Source of the DNA: a virus
Strand: one strand, 5' to 3'
Length of the DNA: 33,172 nucleotides
IMG/VR virus record: IMGVR_UViG_3300013233_000432
Location: 1-33,172 of that record
In this document: positions 1,010 to 8,596 of the stretch, piece after piece
Numbering within the stretch: the first letter of the stretch is position 1
Layout: every line of letters starts with the position of its first letter
Program-made: the position numbers and the translations under genes
The notes under the pieces: generated by a model
Database searches by the model: none
What the model was told of the DNA's origin: nothing
What the model saw: the letters and a program-made list of their open reading frames with translations, nothing else

Positions 1010-1602
1010 GACAGGGCTCCCTTTACTTTCCAGATGTCTCGCATATCTTGCGCGATGAAGTCGGCCACTGTGGTTCTCGGAGCGCGGTCCAGGAGTGCCA
1101 GCGCGACCTCGCAGTAGCAGGACCGGGCCAACAGACCGCCCTTTCCTTTCCTGGTCTCGGGAAGCTCCCTGATGCCATAGACGAGCACTCTGTCGTCATC
1201 CTCGATCCTTTCCGGCCCGCCGTCCGGTGCCGGGGAGAAAGAGCGAGCCAAGAAGAACTCGTCCCAATCCGGCAGCCGTTCCGCGAGCAGCGGGGGAAGC
1301 CAGTCGTATTCGTCGAGGCGGATCACTCCTTCGCCCACAGCCCCGGCGTCGGCGTCGCGGTTGAGGCTGGCGAGGAATCGGTTATGCGACCTCACCAGCT
1401 CGAATTCCGCAATCTTGGCAGCGTGCTGGACGCCGATCGCTTTCATCAGGCGCAACGAAATACAGGTAAATGCCTGGAACTCCTGGAGCACCCCGCTCAC
1501 GCCGCAGACCTCGGGACCGCAGCTCGCTGCGATCTCCCACGACGGGAGCAGCTCCTGGACCGCAGCCTGAAGATCCTCGGCAATCTTGGTGGAGGCGATC
1601 AC
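1006..1602 (-). CDS. Hypothetical protein, 198 aa
   Basis: The start is taken as the GTG at 1602, because it overlaps the TGA of the upstream gene by 4 bp as its neighbours do. The frame stays open further upstream, but there it would run antiparallel in frame over the upstream gene. No family is recognised. The protein is acidic and aromatic in its second half ([22 protein letters not shown]) and has a few Cys residues without a clear metal-binding spacing. It lies directly after the gpZ/gp10-like gene, so a morphogenesis role is possible but not shown. Confidence 0.6.
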
Positions 1603-2225
1603 TTCGCCGACCTCACCGCGTCCTTCATCGCCGCGTCGAACCGAGGCCCGAACTGCCGATCCGCCACGATCTGCCCGGCGCGTCGGAAGGGGATGCGCCG
1701 GGTGCGGTAGGCCACACTCGGCTTGAACGCCACGAGCATCTTGAGCCCGGGGCGCTTCTTGCCCCCCGTCCGCAGCCAGATGCCGAGATCGCCGGAGCGT
1801 CCCGCCCGCCCGATGAAAGCCTTCTTCCGCTCGGCCGCTGAGAGCTTCCGGGTGCCTCCACGCCGCGGCATGTTGCCGTAGCGGTTGAGGCGGAGGTTGT
1901 GCGTCGGCACCGGGATACCAGCGCCCTTCGGCGTCCGGGTGCCGCCCTCGATCTGGTAGCGGAGGTAGCGCTCCTGGATTTCCTGGACGTAGACCGAGGC
2001 GACCTGCTTGGTCTTCGTCGCTCGCTTGACGCGGAAGGCGCGCTTCGTGAACGGCGTCGGGCGGTCCAGCCAGCGGGGGAGGCGCTCCGCCAGGTGATTG
2101 CGGACATCCCACGCGGTCTTCGTCAAAGCCTTCGCCGTCGCGAACGGGAGCTGCTTGCGCTCGAGGTCCGACAGGTGGCGGGTGAGGCGCTCCAGGTCCT
2201 GCTCGATGCTGATCTCGATGACCAT
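1599..2225 (-). CDS. gpZ / HK97-gp10-like minor tail or neck protein (tentative)
   Basis: The protein is 208 aa with an ATG at 2225 that overlaps the upstream stop (TGATG). It is very basic. The N-terminus (EQDLERLTRHLSDLERKQLP followed by ATAKALTKTAWDVRNHL) resembles the opening helices of lambda minor tail protein Z and HK97 gp10-like proteins, which have an amphipathic helix, then an A-x-A-L-x-x-T/A helix, then a long basic beta-rich part. Its length is close to that of lambda gpZ (192 aa). Against this, it lies in the replication arm, about 15 kb of transcript ahead of the other tail genes. I am fairly sure it is a real gene and only moderately sure of the family. Confidence 0.5.
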   Translation of the reverse strand: MVIEISIEQDLERLTRHLSDLERKQLPFATAKALTKTAWDVRNHLAERLPRWLDRPTPFTKRAFRVKRATKTKQVASVYVQEIQERYLRYQIEGGTRTPKGAGIPVPTHNLRLNRYGNMPRRGGTRKLSAAERKKAFIGRAGRSGDLGIWLRTGGKKRPGLKMLVAFKPSVAYRTRRIPFRRAGQIVADRQFGPRFDAAMKDAVRSAK

Positions 2226-2479
2226 CACCACTCCTCCGGGATGAGGCTGCCGCCATGTTTCCAGACGAAACGCCATCGGCTGATCCCGGTGTCGCGGAAC
2301 AGGGCGCAAGCCTTCTCCCGAATCTCCCGAATCCGGCCGCTGCTATTCAGCCGATCGAAATCCTCGGCCTCCAGGAGGATCTCACCGAAAGTCGGACGAC
2401 AGGAGACTAGCTGCCTCTCCTCCGTCCAACACGGCGTGGGCGAAACGGCGAGCGGAATGATGATGGTCGGCCGCGTCAT
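2225..2479 (-). CDS. Hypothetical protein, 84 aa
   Basis: The ATG at 2479 overlaps the TGA of the initiator gene by 4 bp (ATGA), and the stop overlaps the next start (TGATG). No family is recognised. It has an N-terminal hydrophobic stretch (TIIIPLAV) and a C-terminal Trp-rich segment (RWRFVWKHGG). Its place directly after the replication initiator is where lambda-like phages carry the helicase loader, but at 84 aa with no Walker motif it cannot be a DnaC-type or P-type loader by sequence. Confidence 0.6.
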   Translation of the reverse strand: MTRPTIIIPLAVSPTPCWTEERQLVSCRPTFGEILLEAEDFDRLNSSGRIREIREKACALFRDTGISRWRFVWKHGGSLIPEEW

Positions 2480-3897
2480 GCCGCATCCTCCTCGAAATAA
2501 TCCAGGCCCTGGTTCTGGAGTGCCTGCCTGTGATCCTGCCGAACAGCTCGCTGGACCTCCAGCAGCTTCTCGTCCTCTGGCCCTCGTGGCTTGTCGTGAC
2601 GCGCCCTGTCCGTCCGGGCTCGCTCGGCGGCCTCCTCCGCCTTCATCCGCTCGGCCTGGATCGTGGCCAGGTGGTCGCCCGGGTCCTCGTGAAAGATCCT
2701 GGCGAGCACGGAGCGGCACTCGTCCTCCTCCAGCAGCTCCCGGGTGGGCTCCGGGAGATCGGGCGCAGCCTCCAGCTCCTCGACGAGGGCGGCGCCCAAG
2801 GCCTGGAGATCGGCGTCGGCCTGCTCTGCCTTGGCCTTGGCCTCCTGCTCGCGGGCGTAGGAGATCTCCATGGCTTGCCACTTCACCCGCCCGGCCTCGT
2901 CGCCCTTGAGGATGGCCTGGTGGAGCTGGCGGAGCTTGCCGTCCTTCTTCGTCGGCCGCTTCCCCTGCCGGCCGTAGAGGTCCAGCATCGAGTAGAGGTA
3001 AGCCGGGGGGTCCTTGGCGATGGCCGCCTGGCGACACCAGCAGTCCACGGACTCGACGGGCCAGCCGCGGTCGAGGTAGGCGCGGAGGATCTGTGCGGTC
3101 TTGGCCTTCCGGTAGCTCGCGGTCAGCCACTCGCGGTGACCGGTCTCCGGGTCGGGCTCGGAGAACTGGAGCCATCGGGGGGTCTGGAGAACGGCATCGA
3201 CGGCCGTGGCGAGGTCGAAGCCTGGCCCGGTGCCGGGTGGCGGAGGGACGGGAGGCAAGACGGGAGGAGGGCTCGGGGCTTCGGCTCGGGGCTTCTCCGG
3301 TCCGGGTTCAGCGGAGCTGAAATTCACATCTCCGGGAGAGGCTGGAGCGGGGGGAGGCTCGGGCGGGTGAGGGGGGCTGGGAGGAGATGTGGATTCTTCA
3401 ATTGGATTCTTCCCATTGAATACTTCAGAGGGGTCAGTTGACCCCTGGTAGTAGGGGTCAGTTGACCCCTGGTGGGGGGGTCGGTTGACCCCTGGTCCAG
3501 CATAGGGGGGGTCAGTTGACCCCTGGTTGGCCGGAATCCCGCGCCGTTCCTGGGCAGGGGGGGGGTCAGTTGACCCCTGGTAGACCACGAAGGAGGGGTC
3601 AGTTGACCCCTGGTGTGCGAGTTCGCTCGAAATCGCCCAGACCACCACCCCGCGGCCGGTCTTGCGTCCTGTCTTGGCGACCACCCCTGCTTTCTCGAGA
3701 TCGAGGAGCCGTCGGCCGACCTGCCGCAGATCCACCCCGGACTCCTCCGAGATCCGTCGCCGCGAGGGCCAAGCCTCCCCTTCCACGTTGCGGCGGGAGA
3801 GGAGGGCGAGATAGACGAGGACGCCATCGAGGGTGACGCCGCGGGCCTTCAGGTCGCGAACGAGATCCAGGCTCATCCAGGCGCGGCGCTCAGACAC
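2476..3897 (-). CDS. Phage replication initiator (lambda O-like layout, winged-helix N-terminus)
   Basis: The protein is 473 aa with a GTG start at 3897 that overlaps the upstream gene by 8 bp. Residues 1-92 form a helix-turn-helix/winged-helix domain of the kind found in phage replication proteins: MSLDLVRDLKARG, GVLVYLALLSRRN, WPSRRRISEESGVDLRQVGRRLLDLEKAGVV. Residues 95-160 are the translation of six origin iterons (QGSTDP in five copies, PGVNRP in the third). A Pro-rich linker follows (about 170-215), then a C-terminal part with a long charged helical region. The order of DNA-binding domain, origin inside the gene, linker and C-terminal domain is that of lambda O, which binds its iterons and recruits a helicase loader. 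No loader is visible nearby. The sequence family of the C-terminus is not recognised. Confidence 0.8.
   Translation of the reverse strand: MSERRAWMSLDLVRDLKARGVTLDGVLVYLALLSRRNVEGEAWPSRRRISEESGVDLRQVGRRLLDLEKAGVVAKTGRKTGRGVVVWAISSELAHQGSTDPSFVVYQGSTDPPPAQERRGIPANQGSTDPPYAGPGVNRPPHQGSTDPYYQGSTDPSEVFNGKNPIEESTSPPSPPHPPEPPPAPASPGDVNFSSAEPGPEKPRAEAPSPPPVLPPVPPPPGTGPGFDLATAVDAVLQTPRWLQFSEPDPETGHREWLTASYRKAKTAQILRAYLDRGWPVESVDCWCRQAAIAKDPPAYLYSMLDLYGRQGKRPTKKDGKLRQLHQAILKGDEAGRVKWQAMEISYAREQEAKAKAEQADADLQALGAALVEELEAAPDLPEPTRELLEEDECRSVLARIFHEDPGDHLATIQAERMKAEEAAERARTDRARHDKPRGPEDEKLLEVQRAVRQDHRQALQNQGLDYFEEDAA
3391..3429. other. AT-rich stretch beside the iterons, candidate DNA unwinding element
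   Basis: In a strongly GC-rich genome this stretch next to the first iteron is mostly A and T (ggattcttcaattggattct and following). It lies inside the initiator gene on the C-terminal side of the iterons. In lambda the easily melted region also borders the iterons within gene O. The role is inferred from position and composition. Confidence 0.5.
3430..3613 (+). repeat. Six palindromic iterons, probable replication origin
   Basis: Six copies of GGGGTCAGTTGACCCCTGG lie in the same orientation at 3430-3448, 3454-3472, 3477-3495, 3508-3526, 3562-3580 and 3595-3613. Five are identical; the third has GGGGTCGG. The first 16 bp are a perfect inverted repeat (GGGGTCA, GT, TGACCCC), so each copy can bind a dimer. 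Copies 3, 4 and 5 are preceded by runs of extra G (seven to nine G in a row). The array is inside the initiator gene, between its DNA-binding domain and its C-terminal part, as in lambda ori. Function as the origin is inferred. Confidence 0.8.
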
Positions 3898-4270
3898 AGC
3901 TCCCCTCCCCGTCCTCTCCCTGCTTCTCGGAGGCCAGCGCGTGCTCGAGCTCCTCCAGCAGCCTCCGGCGCTGGCCTTCCTCCCCGGGTGGCACGATCGA
4001 CCACATGGGAGGCTTCCAGCTCATCCGCGAGATCAGCTCCCGCCCTTCGAGGTGGTCGAGGATTCCCCCGAGGAGGCCGGGCGAGAGAGCCAAGAGGTCG
4101 GCGAAGCGGTCGAGGTTGTGGATCTCAACGATCTCCGCGATCTGGTCGGCGAACTCCCACAGCGCCTGATGGACGATGCCCGCGTGATAGCGGCGGATGA
4201 CCTCCTCCCGCTTGGCGACCAGCAGCCGCAGGTGGCCGGGGAGGCGGTCGCGGATGGGGTTACGCTTCAT
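3890..4270 (-). CDS. Hypothetical protein, 126 aa
   Basis: The ATG at 4270 overlaps the upstream TGA by 4 bp. No family is recognised. The sequence is mostly helical (REEVIRRYHAGIVHQALWEFADQIAEIVEIHNL) with a central segment, LLALSPGLLGGILDHLEGRELI, that could be a winged-helix-like fold. It lies between a small possible winged-helix protein and the replication initiator, so a role in replication control is possible. Confidence 0.65.
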   Translation of the reverse strand: MKRNPIRDRLPGHLRLLVAKREEVIRRYHAGIVHQALWEFADQIAEIVEIHNLDRFADLLALSPGLLGGILDHLEGRELISRMSWKPPMWSIVPPGEEGQRRRLLEELEHALASEKQGEDGEGSCV

Positions 4271-4578
4271 GCTTCGATTTCCGGCTGGAAGAGGGTGACG
4301 GCGTAGCGGTGGGTTCCTTTGACCCGCCGGAAGTCGATGAGCTTCGCATTGCGGAGTTGACGGAGCATGAGTATCACAGTATTGCTGGACAGTCGAATCG
4401 AGGGGCCGAAAGTAGAAGGAAGAATTTCCACCGTTTCGCCAGGGGCGAGAGTTTGCCGGAGTTCCAGCAGGGCCAGGATGGCGCCCCTTGTGAGCCTCTT
4501 AGGCTTCCAGATCGAATCAGTCTCCCCCGGGACGATCCAAGGGGCGCACGGGGTCTGCGGCGTGGAGAGAGCAGGCAT
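4267..4578 (-). CDS. Small protein with possible winged helix, first gene of the leftward operon
   Basis: The protein is 103 aa from an ATG at 4578. RGAILALLELRQTLAPGETVEILP, SSNTVILMLRQLRNAKLIDFRRVKGTHRYAV reads as a small winged helix: two helices, a recognition helix and a beta-wing ending in a Tyr/Val strand. It is the first gene leftward from the divergent control region, where phages often encode a regulator or replication accessory. A TTGACC lies 38-43 bp upstream on the minus strand, but the matching -10 is poor. Function is not assigned. Confidence 0.6.
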   Translation of the reverse strand: MPALSTPQTPCAPWIVPGETDSIWKPKRLTRGAILALLELRQTLAPGETVEILPSTFGPSIRLSSNTVILMLRQLRNAKLIDFRRVKGTHRYAVTLFQPEIEA

Positions 4579-4626
4579 GGGCTCACGATGGCGCCGACCT
4601 GGCGCGGGGTCAATAGGTCATGGAGG

Positions 4627-4689
4627 TTTTTTCGCAGAACTTCACCCTCACCTTTTGTCGCCGCGGCCGCACGTTCATTTGCGAAAAAA
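4627..4689. repeat. 10-bp inverted repeat in the divergent control region
   Basis: TTTTTTCGCA at 4627-4636 is the exact reverse complement of TGCGAAAAAA at 4680-4689. The arms are 43 nt apart and lie in the non-coding segment between the two divergent operons, just upstream of the plus-strand -35 box. They could be paired sites for one regulator on opposite faces or strands. A terminator is less likely because of the long loop. Confidence 0.5.
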
Positions 4690-4692
4690 AGA

Positions 4693-4720
4693 TTGAAAAC
4701 CCTATTCACTCGGCTATCGT
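4693..4720 (+). promoter_or_regulatory. Probable early rightward promoter
   Basis: TTGAAA at 4693-4698 matches the -35 consensus in five of six positions. After 16 bp, TATCGT at 4715-4720 matches the -10 in four of six. It lies in the only sizeable gap ahead of the rightward operon and its -10 is covered by a palindrome, so it is well placed to drive and regulate the recombination genes. Confidence 0.55.
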
Positions 4721-4733
4721 GAACGCCGATAGC
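4713..4733. promoter_or_regulatory. 21-bp palindrome over the -10, candidate operator
   Basis: GCTATCG at 4713-4719 and CGATAGC at 4727-4733 are perfect 7-bp inverted arms with a 7-nt spacer (TGAACGC). Half-site spacing and position over the -10 fit a dimeric phage repressor operator. The regulator is unknown; the small HTH protein at 8589-8855 and the possible winged-helix protein at 4267-4578 are candidates. Confidence 0.55.
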
Positions 4734-4772
4734 AAGGACTGGCGACGCGGCTTTTGCTCGCATCCAACCCCC

Positions 4773-4925
4773 ATGACCACTCCCACTCACCACTTTCCCA
4801 CCGCGGAGGCTCGGCGCTTTGCCACCACCGCGCACCCGCTCTCTCCTTCGCAACGCCGCAGCTACACGGCACTTGCGACCATCCTCATCACGACGCTGCT
4901 CCTGGCATGGGCGGTGATGGGATGA
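4773..4925 (+). CDS. Small membrane protein, 50 aa
   Basis: The ATG at 4773 is the only usable start downstream of the early promoter, although no clear ribosome binding site precedes it. The stop overlaps the next ATG (ATGGGATGA region). The first 30 residues are polar and the C-terminus is one hydrophobic segment (TALATILITTLLLAWAVMG), so it is a single-span, tail-anchored-like protein. First genes of phage early operons often encode small host-takeover or exclusion proteins; nothing more specific can be said. Confidence 0.45.
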   Translation: MTTPTHHFPTAEARRFATTAHPLSPSQRRSYTALATILITTLLLAWAVMG

Positions 4926-5200
4926 GCGGATCCACCCCCCTGTTCGAGGCCCTCGCGATGCCCCAGGAGCCCGCGGAACTCATGGCCTACTATCCCGCCC
5001 TTGTCCGGGCGGAGAAGGCAGCTCTAGACCTCCAGGTAGCCTGCCTCCGGATCGCCTCCCTAGGGACGCGTCAGCGGATCGGCGAACTCCTCGTCCAAAT
5101 TCAGACCATTCGGTTTGGGACGGAGAATTGGCTCATGGACGCAGCCGTGCTCCGCAACATCCTCCAGGACCGGGTGGCAGAGGAGGGGGCAGATGACTGA
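4922..5200 (+). CDS. Hypothetical protein, 92 aa
   Basis: The ATG at 4922 overlaps the previous TGA. The end overlaps the ATPase start by 8 bp. It is helical and Leu/Ala rich (YYPALVRAEKAALDLQVACLRIASLG) with no recognised family. Its position ahead of the ATPase and nuclease genes suggests it belongs to the recombination module. Confidence 0.6.
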   Translation: MSGSTPLFEALAMPQEPAELMAYYPALVRAEKAALDLQVACLRIASLGTRQRIGELLVQIQTIRFGTENWLMDAAVLRNILQDRVAEEGADD

Positions 5201-6587
5201 TTCCACCCCTCCCCCCCTCACCGTTGTCGCCCTCCAGGCGTCGAACTTCAAGCGCCTTCGCGCCGTCCAACTTGCCCCGAGCCCGACCGGCCTGGTCGAG
5301 GTCCGAGGCCGCAACGGGGAGGGGAAATCCTCCCTCCTCGATGCGCTGGCCGCGGCCCTCGGGGGCAAGCGGTCCTGCCCGTCCCAGCCCATCCACAGCG
5401 GGGAGGATGCCGCGGAGGTCGTCGCCGACCTGGGGGGCCTTGTCGTCCGCCGGCGGTGGACGGACCCCGCAGATCCGCAGAAGTCCTATCTCACGGTGGA
5501 GAACGGAGAAGGGGCGCGCTACCCCTCGCCTCAAGCCCTCCTGGATGGGCTCGTCGGGCGCTTCGCCGACCCGGTGCGGTTCCTCGGGCTGCCAGAGCAG
5601 GAGCAGATCCGGGAGGTGCTCCAGATGGTTGACCTCGGGGTCGATCTCCCGGCCTCGCGGAAGCAGGAGGCTGAGCTGGCCGCCAGGCGTAAGGCGCTGC
5701 GATCCGCGACCGAATCCCTGGAGGCCCGACTGGATGGCCTCCTCGAGGAGGCGGTGGACCAGAGCGGCGACCTGGTGGACGAGAAGCAGGCCGACGCAGC
5801 CCGGCAGCTCCTCGCGCAGGATGACGAGGCGAGACAGCGCCACGAGGCCGCAATCCAGCGCGCCAGGGCAGCCGAGGCCGAGGAGACGCACCTCAACTCC
5901 GCGTGGGACATGGCCACCGGCGAGGTCCAGCGGATCACCCAGGAGATTGATCGACTCCAGGCGCAGCTGGAGACCGCGCGCCAGAAGGCCAACGAGATCC
6001 ACGGCAAGATCCAAGAGGCCGAGAAGGCCACCCAGGCAGCCCTGACCGCCGTGGATGCGATCCAGCCCAGGCTCGCCGACGAGGCGCGCGAGGAACTCAA
6101 CGCGGTGATCGAGCGAGCGAAGAGCCAGGAGCAGATCCGCGCCCAGCAGGCCGCCATCGAGGCTCGGGGGAAGGAAGTCCAGGATCAGCTCGCCGCATCC
6201 CGCGAGGAGCTGGAGCAGACCCAGCAGGCGATCGAGGAGGTCCGTCAGCAGCGCAAGGACGCGCTCGCTGCGATCCAGTTCCCGGTTGACGGCATGGCCT
6301 TCGACGGCTCCCAGATCCTCCTCAACGGCGTGCCATTCTCGCAAGCCTCGCAAGCCGAACGCTTGTCCGCGAGCGCGGAGCTTGCCATGGCCCAGTCTCC
6401 GCGCATCCGGGTCATGTTCGCCCGGGACGGCAGCCTCCTCGACGAGGCCCACAAGGCCCAGCTCGCCGAGATCGTGGAGCGCCACGGCTGGCAGCTCTGG
6501 CTGGAGGTCGTGGATGACCAGGCCGAAGGGCCGGGAGTCTTCATCGAGGACGGCACCGCGATCACCGCAGAAACTGTGAAGGAATGA
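5193..6587 (+). CDS. SMC/RecF-like ATPase of phage recombination module
   Basis: The protein is 464 aa from ATG 5193. It opens with a RecF/Rad50-type head: LQASNFKRLRAVQL, then the Walker A GRNGEGKS at residues 39-46. Residues 165-385 are a Glu/Ala/Gln/Arg-rich coiled coil. The C-terminal head has VPFSQASQAERLSASAELAMAQ, which stands where the ABC signature lies, and IRVMFARDGSLLDEAHKAQL as a degenerate Walker B/D-loop. It is shorter than SbcC/Rad50 and resembles the compact ATPases phages encode beside RecE/RecT. It probably handles DNA ends together with the exonuclease at 7050. Family is clear; substrate is inferred. Confidence 0.85.
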   Translation: MTDSTPPPLTVVALQASNFKRLRAVQLAPSPTGLVEVRGRNGEGKSSLLDALAAALGGKRSCPSQPIHSGEDAAEVVADLGGLVVRRRWTDPADPQKSYLTVENGEGARYPSPQALLDGLVGRFADPVRFLGLPEQEQIREVLQMVDLGVDLPASRKQEAELAARRKALRSATESLEARLDGLLEEAVDQSGDLVDEKQADAARQLLAQDDEARQRHEAAIQRARAAEAEETHLNSAWDMATGEVQRITQEIDRLQAQLETARQKANEIHGKIQEAEKATQAALTAVDAIQPRLADEAREELNAVIERAKSQEQIRAQQAAIEARGKEVQDQLAASREELEQTQQAIEEVRQQRKDALAAIQFPVDGMAFDGSQILLNGVPFSQASQAERLSASAELAMAQSPRIRVMFARDGSLLDEAHKAQLAEIVERHGWQLWLEVVDDQAEGPGVFIEDGTAITAETVKE

Positions 6588-6793
6588 AGAAGCAAACCAA
6601 GAAGATACTCTCTCTGACCCGGCGCGGCTGGGTCTCCCCGATGGCCGCTCTCCGCGAGGCCGGGTGTATGCGGCTCGGCGCTCGAATCTACGAGCTGCGC
6701 GAGATGGGCCACGAGTTCGAGACGCGGTGGCGGCGGCTGCGGAACGGGAAGCTTGTGAAGGAGTTCCGGCTGCGGAAGTCGGTGAGCGCATGA
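6584..6793 (+). CDS. Small helix-turn-helix protein, 69 aa
   Basis: The start overlaps the ATPase stop (ATGA). After a basic N-terminus, RGWVSPMAALREAGCMRLGARIYELREMGHEFETRW matches the pattern of the short phage helix-turn-helix domain in which a conserved 'RL..RI..LR..GH.I' recognition helix and wing follow a first helix. The C-terminal beta-strands end in a basic tail. It probably binds DNA; whether it is a regulator or a recombination accessory is not known. Confidence 0.7.
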   Translation: MKKQTKKILSLTRRGWVSPMAALREAGCMRLGARIYELREMGHEFETRWRRLRNGKLVKEFRLRKSVSA

Positions 6794-7053
6794 GCCAGCC
6801 CCGAGAGATGGCGAACCACCAGCGGGACTTCTCCGCCTGCGTTTTCTGTGGCCGGAAGATGGCCATGTCGCGGTCTGGGCAGCTCTCCTGCGTCTGCCCG
6901 GATTGGCAGGACTCCTTCGCGCGGAAGCGGAAATACCCGGCCTGGGCCTACGACGCGGCCGTGGAGATCCAGAAGGCGAACCACTACTACTCGCACGACG
7001 CGGCAGCGCGGATGGCGCGGATCATTGGGAAGCACGCGGGGAAGGAAGCATGA
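6790..7053 (+). CDS. Zinc-ribbon-containing hypothetical protein, 87 aa
   Basis: The ATG at 6790 overlaps the upstream TGA by 4 bp. The N-terminal CVFCGRKM and LSCVCPDW give a likely four-Cys zinc ribbon. The rest (AWAYDAAVEIQKANHYYSHDAAARMARII) is helical. No family is recognised. It is coupled to the exonuclease gene (ATGA overlap), so it may bind DNA or the nuclease. Confidence 0.6.
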   Translation: MSQPREMANHQRDFSACVFCGRKMAMSRSGQLSCVCPDWQDSFARKRKYPAWAYDAAVEIQKANHYYSHDAAARMARIIGKHAGKEA

Positions 7054-7874
7054 AGGACATCCCCCTCGGCGTTCACGACGACATCAGCAACGCGGACTAC
7101 CACGCTGGACCCGGCATCAGCAAGTCCGGCCTCGACCTGGTTCACCGCTCCGCGCTCCACTACTGGGCGCGCTACATCGACCCGGAGCGCGAGCCCCAGG
7201 AGCCGACCAAGGCGCTGCGCATGGGCTCTGCCATTCACGGTCTGGTGCTGGAGCCGGACCGCTTCGGCGAGGACTTCGCCGTTGCCCCGGTGTGCGATCG
7301 GCGGACGAAGATCGGCAAGGCCGCCTACGCGGACTTCCTCCTTGATGCGGAGGGCAAGACCGTCCTTTCCGCCGACGAGCACGAGCTGGCCAAGCGCATC
7401 GCCGAGAGCGTCCACGCGCACCCGACGGCGGCCTACCTGCTCTCTGAGGGAGCGCCGGAGCTGTCCGCCTACTGGCGAGACGAGAAGACCGGCGAGCTGT
7501 GCCGCTGCCGTCCCGATTGGTCGCGACCGGACGGAATCCTGGTGGACCTCAAGACCACCGAGGACGCGGGTTATCACGGATTCCGGCGCAGCGCGTGGAA
7601 GTGGCGCTATCACGTCCAGGCGGCCTTCTACCTCGATGGCTGGACGGCTGCGGGGAATCGCCAGGCGGAAGTGTTCGCCTTCGTCGCGGTCGAGAAGTCG
7701 CCGCCCTTCGCGGTCGCCGTCTACTACGCCAGCGAGGACATGGTGCGGCTCGGCAGAGAGGAATATCGCGCCGACCTCGATCACTTCTCCGCCTGCCACA
7801 AGGCGGACCAATGGCCGGGCTACCCGACCAACCTCCAGCAACTCGACCCGCCTGGATGGGCGATGAAAGAATGA
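7050..7874 (+). CDS. RecE-like PD-(D/E)XK exonuclease
   Basis: The protein is 274 aa. It opens with the family signature HDDISNADYHAGPGISKSGLDLVHRS. Nuclease motifs follow: GSAIHGLVLEPDRF with His63, ELSAYW near Glu137, DWSRPDGILVDLKTT with Asp166 and Lys168 (the D...xK core), and HVQAAFYLDG with Gln190 and Tyr194. This is the YqaJ/RecE-type fold that degrades the 5' strand of double-stranded ends to load an annealing protein. The RecT-family gene follows with a 4-bp overlap, which is the usual RecE-RecT pairing. Catalysis is inferred from the motifs. Confidence 0.9.
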   Translation: MKDIPLGVHDDISNADYHAGPGISKSGLDLVHRSALHYWARYIDPEREPQEPTKALRMGSAIHGLVLEPDRFGEDFAVAPVCDRRTKIGKAAYADFLLDAEGKTVLSADEHELAKRIAESVHAHPTAAYLLSEGAPELSAYWRDEKTGELCRCRPDWSRPDGILVDLKTTEDAGYHGFRRSAWKWRYHVQAAFYLDGWTAAGNRQAEVFAFVAVEKSPPFAVAVYYASEDMVRLGREEYRADLDHFSACHKADQWPGYPTNLQQLDPPGWAMKE

Positions 7875-8596
7875 CCGACGAAATCAAGAATGATTCGATC
7901 ACCGTCGCGGAAAGCGACGCCAACTCCGCGCTGCCCGCGATCCCTGACGACGCGCAGTTCCAGCGGCTCTGGCGCATGGGCTCGCTGCTGTCGAAGTCGC
8001 AGTTCGTCCCGGAGCGGTTTCGCGGGAAGCCCGAGGACTGCGTGGTCGGCATCCAGATGGCGGCAAGGCTCCAGGCCGATCCTTTGATGGTGCTCCAGAA
8101 TGTCCAGGTGATCCACGGGACGCCCGGGATGTCGGCGAAGTTCCAGTTCGCGCTCGCCAATCAGCGGGGGCCGTTCTCCGGGCCGATCCGTTTCCGCACT
8201 GAGGGCGAGGGCGAGACGCTGAAGGTGACGGCCTACGCCACTTTCCGCGATGGGGGAGACACGGTGGAGGCATCCGCGAGCATGGCGATGGCGGCGGCGG
8301 AGGGGTGGACGAAGAACGGTAAATACCAGTCCATGCCCGAGCAGATGTTGCGCTACCGGGCCGGAACGCTGCTGATCCGCCTCTACTGCCCGGAGGTCGT
8401 GCTGGGGATGCAGACCGCCGACGAGCTCGAGGACATGACGGCTGCTGCGAAAACCGAGAAGCCCCCCGCCATCAAGAACATCGAGGCGCAGGTGGTCGAT
8501 CCCAAGCCCGACCTCGGCGGCGCTTCGGTCATCACTGACGATCGCCGGGCGCTGCTCGATGCGGCCCTCGGCAAGACGGAGGGCAACGGTGAGTGA
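7871..8596 (+). CDS. recT: RecT-family single-strand annealing protein
   Basis: The protein is 241 aa. It matches the RecT core: VPERFRGKPEDCVVGIQMAARLQADPLMVLQNVQVIHGTPGMSAKF, then the beta segments TLKVTAYATF, ASASMAMAAAEGW, and the diagnostic SMPEQMLRYRAGTLLIRLYCPEVVLGMQTADEL. It coats the 3' single strand exposed by the exonuclease upstream and anneals it to homology. With that nuclease, the ATPase, SSB and RuvC-like gene it forms a full phage recombination system. Confidence 0.92.
   Translation: MTDEIKNDSITVAESDANSALPAIPDDAQFQRLWRMGSLLSKSQFVPERFRGKPEDCVVGIQMAARLQADPLMVLQNVQVIHGTPGMSAKFQFALANQRGPFSGPIRFRTEGEGETLKVTAYATFRDGGDTVEASASMAMAAAEGWTKNGKYQSMPEQMLRYRAGTLLIRLYCPEVVLGMQTADELEDMTAAAKTEKPPAIKNIEAQVVDPKPDLGGASVITDDRRALLDAALGKTEGNGE

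Follow-up and report, generated by a model that had tools for sequence, protein, structure and literature searches.

A candidate theta-type replication origin of six iterons inside the initiator gene of a temperate tailed phage

A leftward gene in the viral record IMGVR_UViG_3300013233_000432 contains six direct repeats beside an AT-rich stretch, which raises the question whether this locus is a replication origin embedded in its own initiator gene, as ori-lambda is embedded in O. The window, meaning the whole stretch of DNA that was analysed, is the full record of 33,172 bp, with a mean AT content of 34%. It encodes a gpA-type large terminase, a tyrosine integrase and a portal protein, and also codes for a RecE-like exonuclease, RecT, SSB and a RuvC-like resolvase; on the basis of these terminase, integrase, portal and recombination genes, the source was assigned as a temperate tailed phage. 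The recombination module lies at 5193-8596 (+ strand), and consists of an SbcC/RecN-like ATPase (PHROG 1499), the RecE-like exonuclease and RecT.

The six direct repeats were located at 3430-3614, reading GGGGTC[A/G]GTTGACCCCTGGT on the + strand. In the 19-base form GGGGTCAGTTGACCCCTGG they start at 3430, 3454, 3477, 3508, 3562 and 3595, five of them exact and one with a single mismatch, against a chance expectation of 0.02 for the whole window with up to 3 mismatches allowed; at the same tolerance, no full iteron was found elsewhere in the 33,172-bp record. Numbered in gene order and given at full unit length, all on the + strand, iteron 1 (3595-3614, exact) directly follows the segment encoding the winged helix, and is succeeded by iteron 2 (3562-3581, exact), iteron 3 (3508-3527, exact), iteron 4 (3477-3496, one mismatch), iteron 5 (3454-3473, exact) and iteron 6 (3430-3449, exact), the last being nearest to the AT-rich element. 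Start-to-start distances, from the lowest coordinate upwards, are 24, 23, 31, 54 and 33. A sequence-only reading of this locus had described six 19-bp palindromic iterons, of which the copy number stood; the repeat unit is 20 bp, since the next base, T, is common to all six copies, and the dyad is confined to the 16-bp core, where it has a 7-2-7 form (7-bp arms, 2 bp between) and is symmetric at 14 of 16 positions. Such a core suits a dimer, and the CTGGT tail is asymmetric, so that all six iterons are set in one orientation.

The AT-rich neighbour was delimited by 40-bp AT content as a stretch of 45 bp at 3385-3429, and is treated here as a candidate DNA unwinding element. It is one of four places in the contig with a 40-bp AT content of at least 65%, and 3393-3422, within it, is 70% AT, a value that 30-bp segments reach at just two further places. 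A repeat scan showed a tandem 13-mer in this stretch (GAAGAATCCAATT / GAAGAATCCACAT, 3387-3412, - strand); an exact 10-mer repeated within 26 nt occurs at four places in the 33 kb, 3387-3412 among them. The stretch lies 3' of the array in the direction of the gene, with iterons coming before AT-rich DNA, 5' to 3' in the minus-strand gene, and the AT-rich neighbour and the order resembling lambda O/ori, both put forward in the sequence-only reading, were thereby borne out. Cumulative GC skew, which had been suggested as a check, has its minimum at 2905, yet skew at four-fold sites follows gene orientation, so this minimum is not evidence and was not counted.

The putative replication initiator gene (2476-3876, - strand) was assigned from matches of its product to Pfam HTH_36 (PF13730; E 1.1e-7, 31.9 bits, passing the curated cut-off of 25) and to the PHROG replication initiation families 270, 1032 and 391, the best being PHROG 270 (E 1.3e-10). 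The protein has 466 aa from ATG 3876 and 473 aa from GTG 3897; an MS start is conserved at ATG 3876 in the alignment, and this is probably the initiator start, which places the repeats at residues 88-149 and not at residues 95-156 as previously given. The first 80-odd residues (3613-3876, - strand) are confidently predicted to form an N-terminal winged-helix DNA-binding domain, whose recognition helix spans about residues 50-62 in the numbering from ATG 3876. AlphaFold2, run with a 29-sequence alignment (28 relatives and the window), gave a model with an overall pLDDT of 85.5 and the order H-H-H-H-E-E, and Foldseek returned weak matches in the PDB to MarR-type and other winged-helix proteins (best E 8.9e-4), and helix-turn-helix matches among viral models, including a putative replication protein O. 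A TrmB match, below threshold, was present besides HTH_36. Taken with the HTH_36 and PHROG matches, the modelled fold agrees with the earlier description of a winged-helix replication protein. The remaining C-terminal part (2476-3285, - strand) was modelled by single-sequence AlphaFold2 as a proline-rich linker and then an all-helical region, at a confidence (pLDDT 58) too low for the model to be of use; this part is a candidate for helicase contact.

Close relatives of the whole initiator were found neither in viral contigs nor in genome contigs or phage records, and plasmid matches were weak and covered part of the protein only. Relatives of the domain were therefore the material of the survey: 125 loci were fetched by domain alignment (a 10-sequence alignment was too diverse for locus search) and, together with phage and plasmid cases, reduced to 34 clusters besides the window. 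Within this sample, which was picked by similarity to the domain, is mostly gammaproteobacterial, and whose array rate should not be generalised to all HTH_36 proteins, 25 of 34 clusters have an array of their own (at least 3 repeat copies) beginning at residues 80-122, right after the domain; the array in the window begins at residue 88. Each cluster has its own or a related repeat sequence, and a 26th cluster, with three matches, was rejected as not an array. At least 3 repeat copies were present in 27 of 35 initiators (window included) versus 10 of 96 other genes in the loci, and at least 4 copies in 17 of the 35 versus none of the 96 neighbouring control genes. The survey detector used 14-base words, and the counts are conservative, since words of this length miss the four annotated iterons of lambda O; 18-base words recover them at residues 117-139, and the DNA beyond them is up to 81% AT. 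No significant array was obtained in TP901-1 rep with the detector used, and this gene was accordingly not taken as a parallel. Among the relatives tested, the downstream side of the array was the more AT-rich in 13 and the upstream side in 10, with 3 ties, showing no consistent downstream excess.

A short motif, GAAYCMRTCA (as in GAACCAGTCACTCTTTTGAACCAGTCAATGAACC), was observed in 2-3 copies at most 130 nt after the array in 22 of 26 repeat-bearing clusters (window excluded, one mismatch allowed), with a copy upstream of the array in only five of those 26, and these counts are descriptive only, because the motif was read from the same sequences in which it was counted. Examples at 0-60 nt after arrays are found in loci L020, L033, L065, L070, L096 and L107, among others, in gammaproteobacterial prophages. 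The motif is possibly a shared unwinding or initiator-ssDNA element; in its place the window has the 13-mers, which are of other sequence.

In-gene iterons have been documented in several phages. Iterons that differ from gene to gene lie within the coding regions of lambda O, P22 gene 18 and L gene 18 (PMC8022706), SPP1 oriL lies within gene 38 (PMC6316719), and in lambdoid Stx phages O contains six iterons, with the AT-rich tract as the unwound part (PMC7466680). Given these cases and the arrays in 25 of the 34 relative clusters, the locus is not of an undescribed kind. What survives of the proposal of an undescribed initiator/iteron pair is that the searched collections yielded no second instance of this particular array: the 19-mer iteron had no exact match in viral contigs, two-copy patterns and matches to the 16-mer core elsewhere were not arrays in initiator genes, and locus L009, at first a promising candidate, was rejected with its repeats outside any recognisable initiator gene.

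The closest parallel in layout is lambda O with ori-lambda, which likewise has an N-terminal DNA-binding domain, dyad iterons of about 20 bp mid-gene and an AT-rich run, in the same order. The differences anticipated by the sequence-only reading in both iteron and protein were upheld: lambda has four iterons of the ATCCCTCAAAACGAGGGA type, whereas the six in the window, GGGGTCAGTTGACCCCTGGT, are unrelated to them, and no Phage_rep_O (PF04492) match was found for the window initiator, while lambda O itself matches at 5.7e-36. The window protein belongs instead to HTH_36, has a longer C-terminal part and is not accompanied by a P gene. No lambda P (PF06992), DnaC/IstB or DnaB was recognised in the window, the record being possibly incomplete, and this result, together with the failed Pfam test for lambda O, makes the system lambda-like in layout and not lambda O proper. 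An ORF at 1006-2256 was considered as a helicase loader and rejected; part of it is in the wrong frame, the coding scores pointing instead to 1006-1602 and 1599-2225, and 1599-2225 (- strand) is a minor tail protein (PHROG 1924, E 1e-46), lying within the gene cluster of the initiator, apart from the other tail genes.

The lambdoid Stx phages P27 and 933W resemble the window in having six iterons in the initiator gene and an AT-rich tract (PMC7466680), but their iterons and proteins are of lambda's own family. Gene 18 of P22 and of phage L also has its own repeats, different between the two (PMC8022706), but these differ in sequence from the window iterons, and P22 and L both have gene 12, which codes for a DnaB-type helicase (PMC8022706). 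SPP1 differs in having its own loader gp39, its own helicase gp40 and a second origin, oriR, whereas the window is without a second array. HTH_36 / PHROG 270 prophage initiators (ST64B Sb42, Klebsiella phage 1 LV-2017, Acinetobacter prophages) share the Pfam domain and an array right after it, but show 22-32% protein identity in the domain and different iterons; spacing in these relatives is mostly 21-24 bp, compared with the wider and less regular spacing of the window, and most of them have GAAYCMRTCA after the array, which the window does not. The window is a further case of the documented layout, in the HTH_36 branch and not in Phage_rep_O.

Three other explanations of the array were weighed. 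Because five of six iterons encode the same hexapeptide, QGSTDP, the repeats could be a linker selected as peptide, their similarity as DNA being a consequence of recent duplication. All six codons are identical in the five QGSTDP copies (P about 1.3e-7 by codon usage alone), including the rare TCA and ACT, whose shares among synonymous codons in this phage are 3.3% and 4.5%, while the spacers between iterons are unrelated, and the copy at 3477 keeps the DNA repeat in another frame, where it encodes PGVNRP; preservation in a shifted frame indicates that DNA, not peptide, is under selection. Recent duplication could account for the codon identity, but not so easily for the shifted-frame DNA and the unrelated spacers, and in relatives the DNA arrays at this position encode other peptides. 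Selection on the peptide is thus very improbable, and the protein segment encoded by the repeats is probably tolerated as a linker, without a specific function as peptide. Loss of the DNA repeat with retention of QGSTDP, which the sequence-only reading had named as counter-evidence, was not seen, and the frame-shifted copy is the reverse of it.

The array could also be an operator, or a plasmid-style copy-control or incompatibility locus, for the same protein, given that iteron binding in plasmids can serve control as well as initiation; the true origin would then lie elsewhere, for example in the divergent AT-rich intergenic region at 4579-4921, where 4670-4708 equals the iteron neighbour in AT-richness and a single GGGGTCA half-site is present at 4606, upstream of the operon. 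However, six further copies of the 7-bp half-site lie outside the array, so the one at 4606 is not significant, no full iteron lies outside the initiator gene, and a mid-gene array bordered by an AT-rich tandem repeat is the way known origins are laid out, making this explanation improbable. The same intergenic region has a promoter-like match at 4693-4720 (+ strand). Direct repeats also serve as partition sites, and a centromere-like site, or one bound by a different regulatory protein, for example the product of either small gene (3890-4270 or 4267-4578), could be supposed on the weak MarR match of the former. Among the proteins searched, however, no partition genes were recognised, a tyrosine integrase is present, and the array lies beside the winged-helix segment of a protein that matches replication initiation families, a pairing that recurs in relatives; such a site is accordingly highly unlikely. 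The two small genes (- strand) lie directly upstream of the initiator gene and may be regulators of the replication operon, the MarR match of 3890-4270 being below the cut-off and 4267-4578 resembling a winged helix by eye only.

The preferred reading, to which we assign a probability of about 0.9, is that theta-type replication starts at this locus, within the initiator gene, in the manner of lambda O/ori. Good support for an origin within the initiator gene comes from where the repeats lie, the family of the protein, conservation at the DNA level and the AT-rich neighbour; the points against it are that no close relative and no recognisable loader or helicase gene were found, that the spacing is less regular than in most relatives, that GC skew gives no support, and that AT content in the set tested does not consistently favour the downstream side. 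On the pattern of lambda O and SPP1 gp38, dimers of the initiator would bind the six dyad iterons via the N-terminal winged helix, giving a nucleoprotein complex, this complex would melt the adjoining AT-rich 13-mers, and the C-terminal part would recruit the replicative helicase, either host DnaB with a loader of the host, or by way of a phage protein that escaped recognition. It is rather unlikely that the protein both recognises the origin, through a dyad iteron found as an array nowhere else searched, and recruits the host helicase directly via its long helical C-terminal part with no phage loader; it would then be an O-type initiator that reaches the helicase by another route.

In this high-GC phage, the frame change at a single repeat allows selection on the DNA to be told apart cleanly from selection on the protein. 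More broadly, the survey suggests that in many temperate phages the initiator gene itself reveals the origin, as an array immediately after the HTH_36 domain. It also provides ready-made protein/iteron pairs in which the joint evolution of winged-helix specificity and binding site could be followed, as well as candidate replicons for use in hosts without plasmids. Repeats with a core similar to the window iteron, in a different setting, were also observed in several viral contigs, as pairs of GGGTCATTTGACCC or GGGTCAAATGACCC; in loci L008, L011, L013, L015, L016 and L018 these pairs are 28 bp apart, outside long ORFs.
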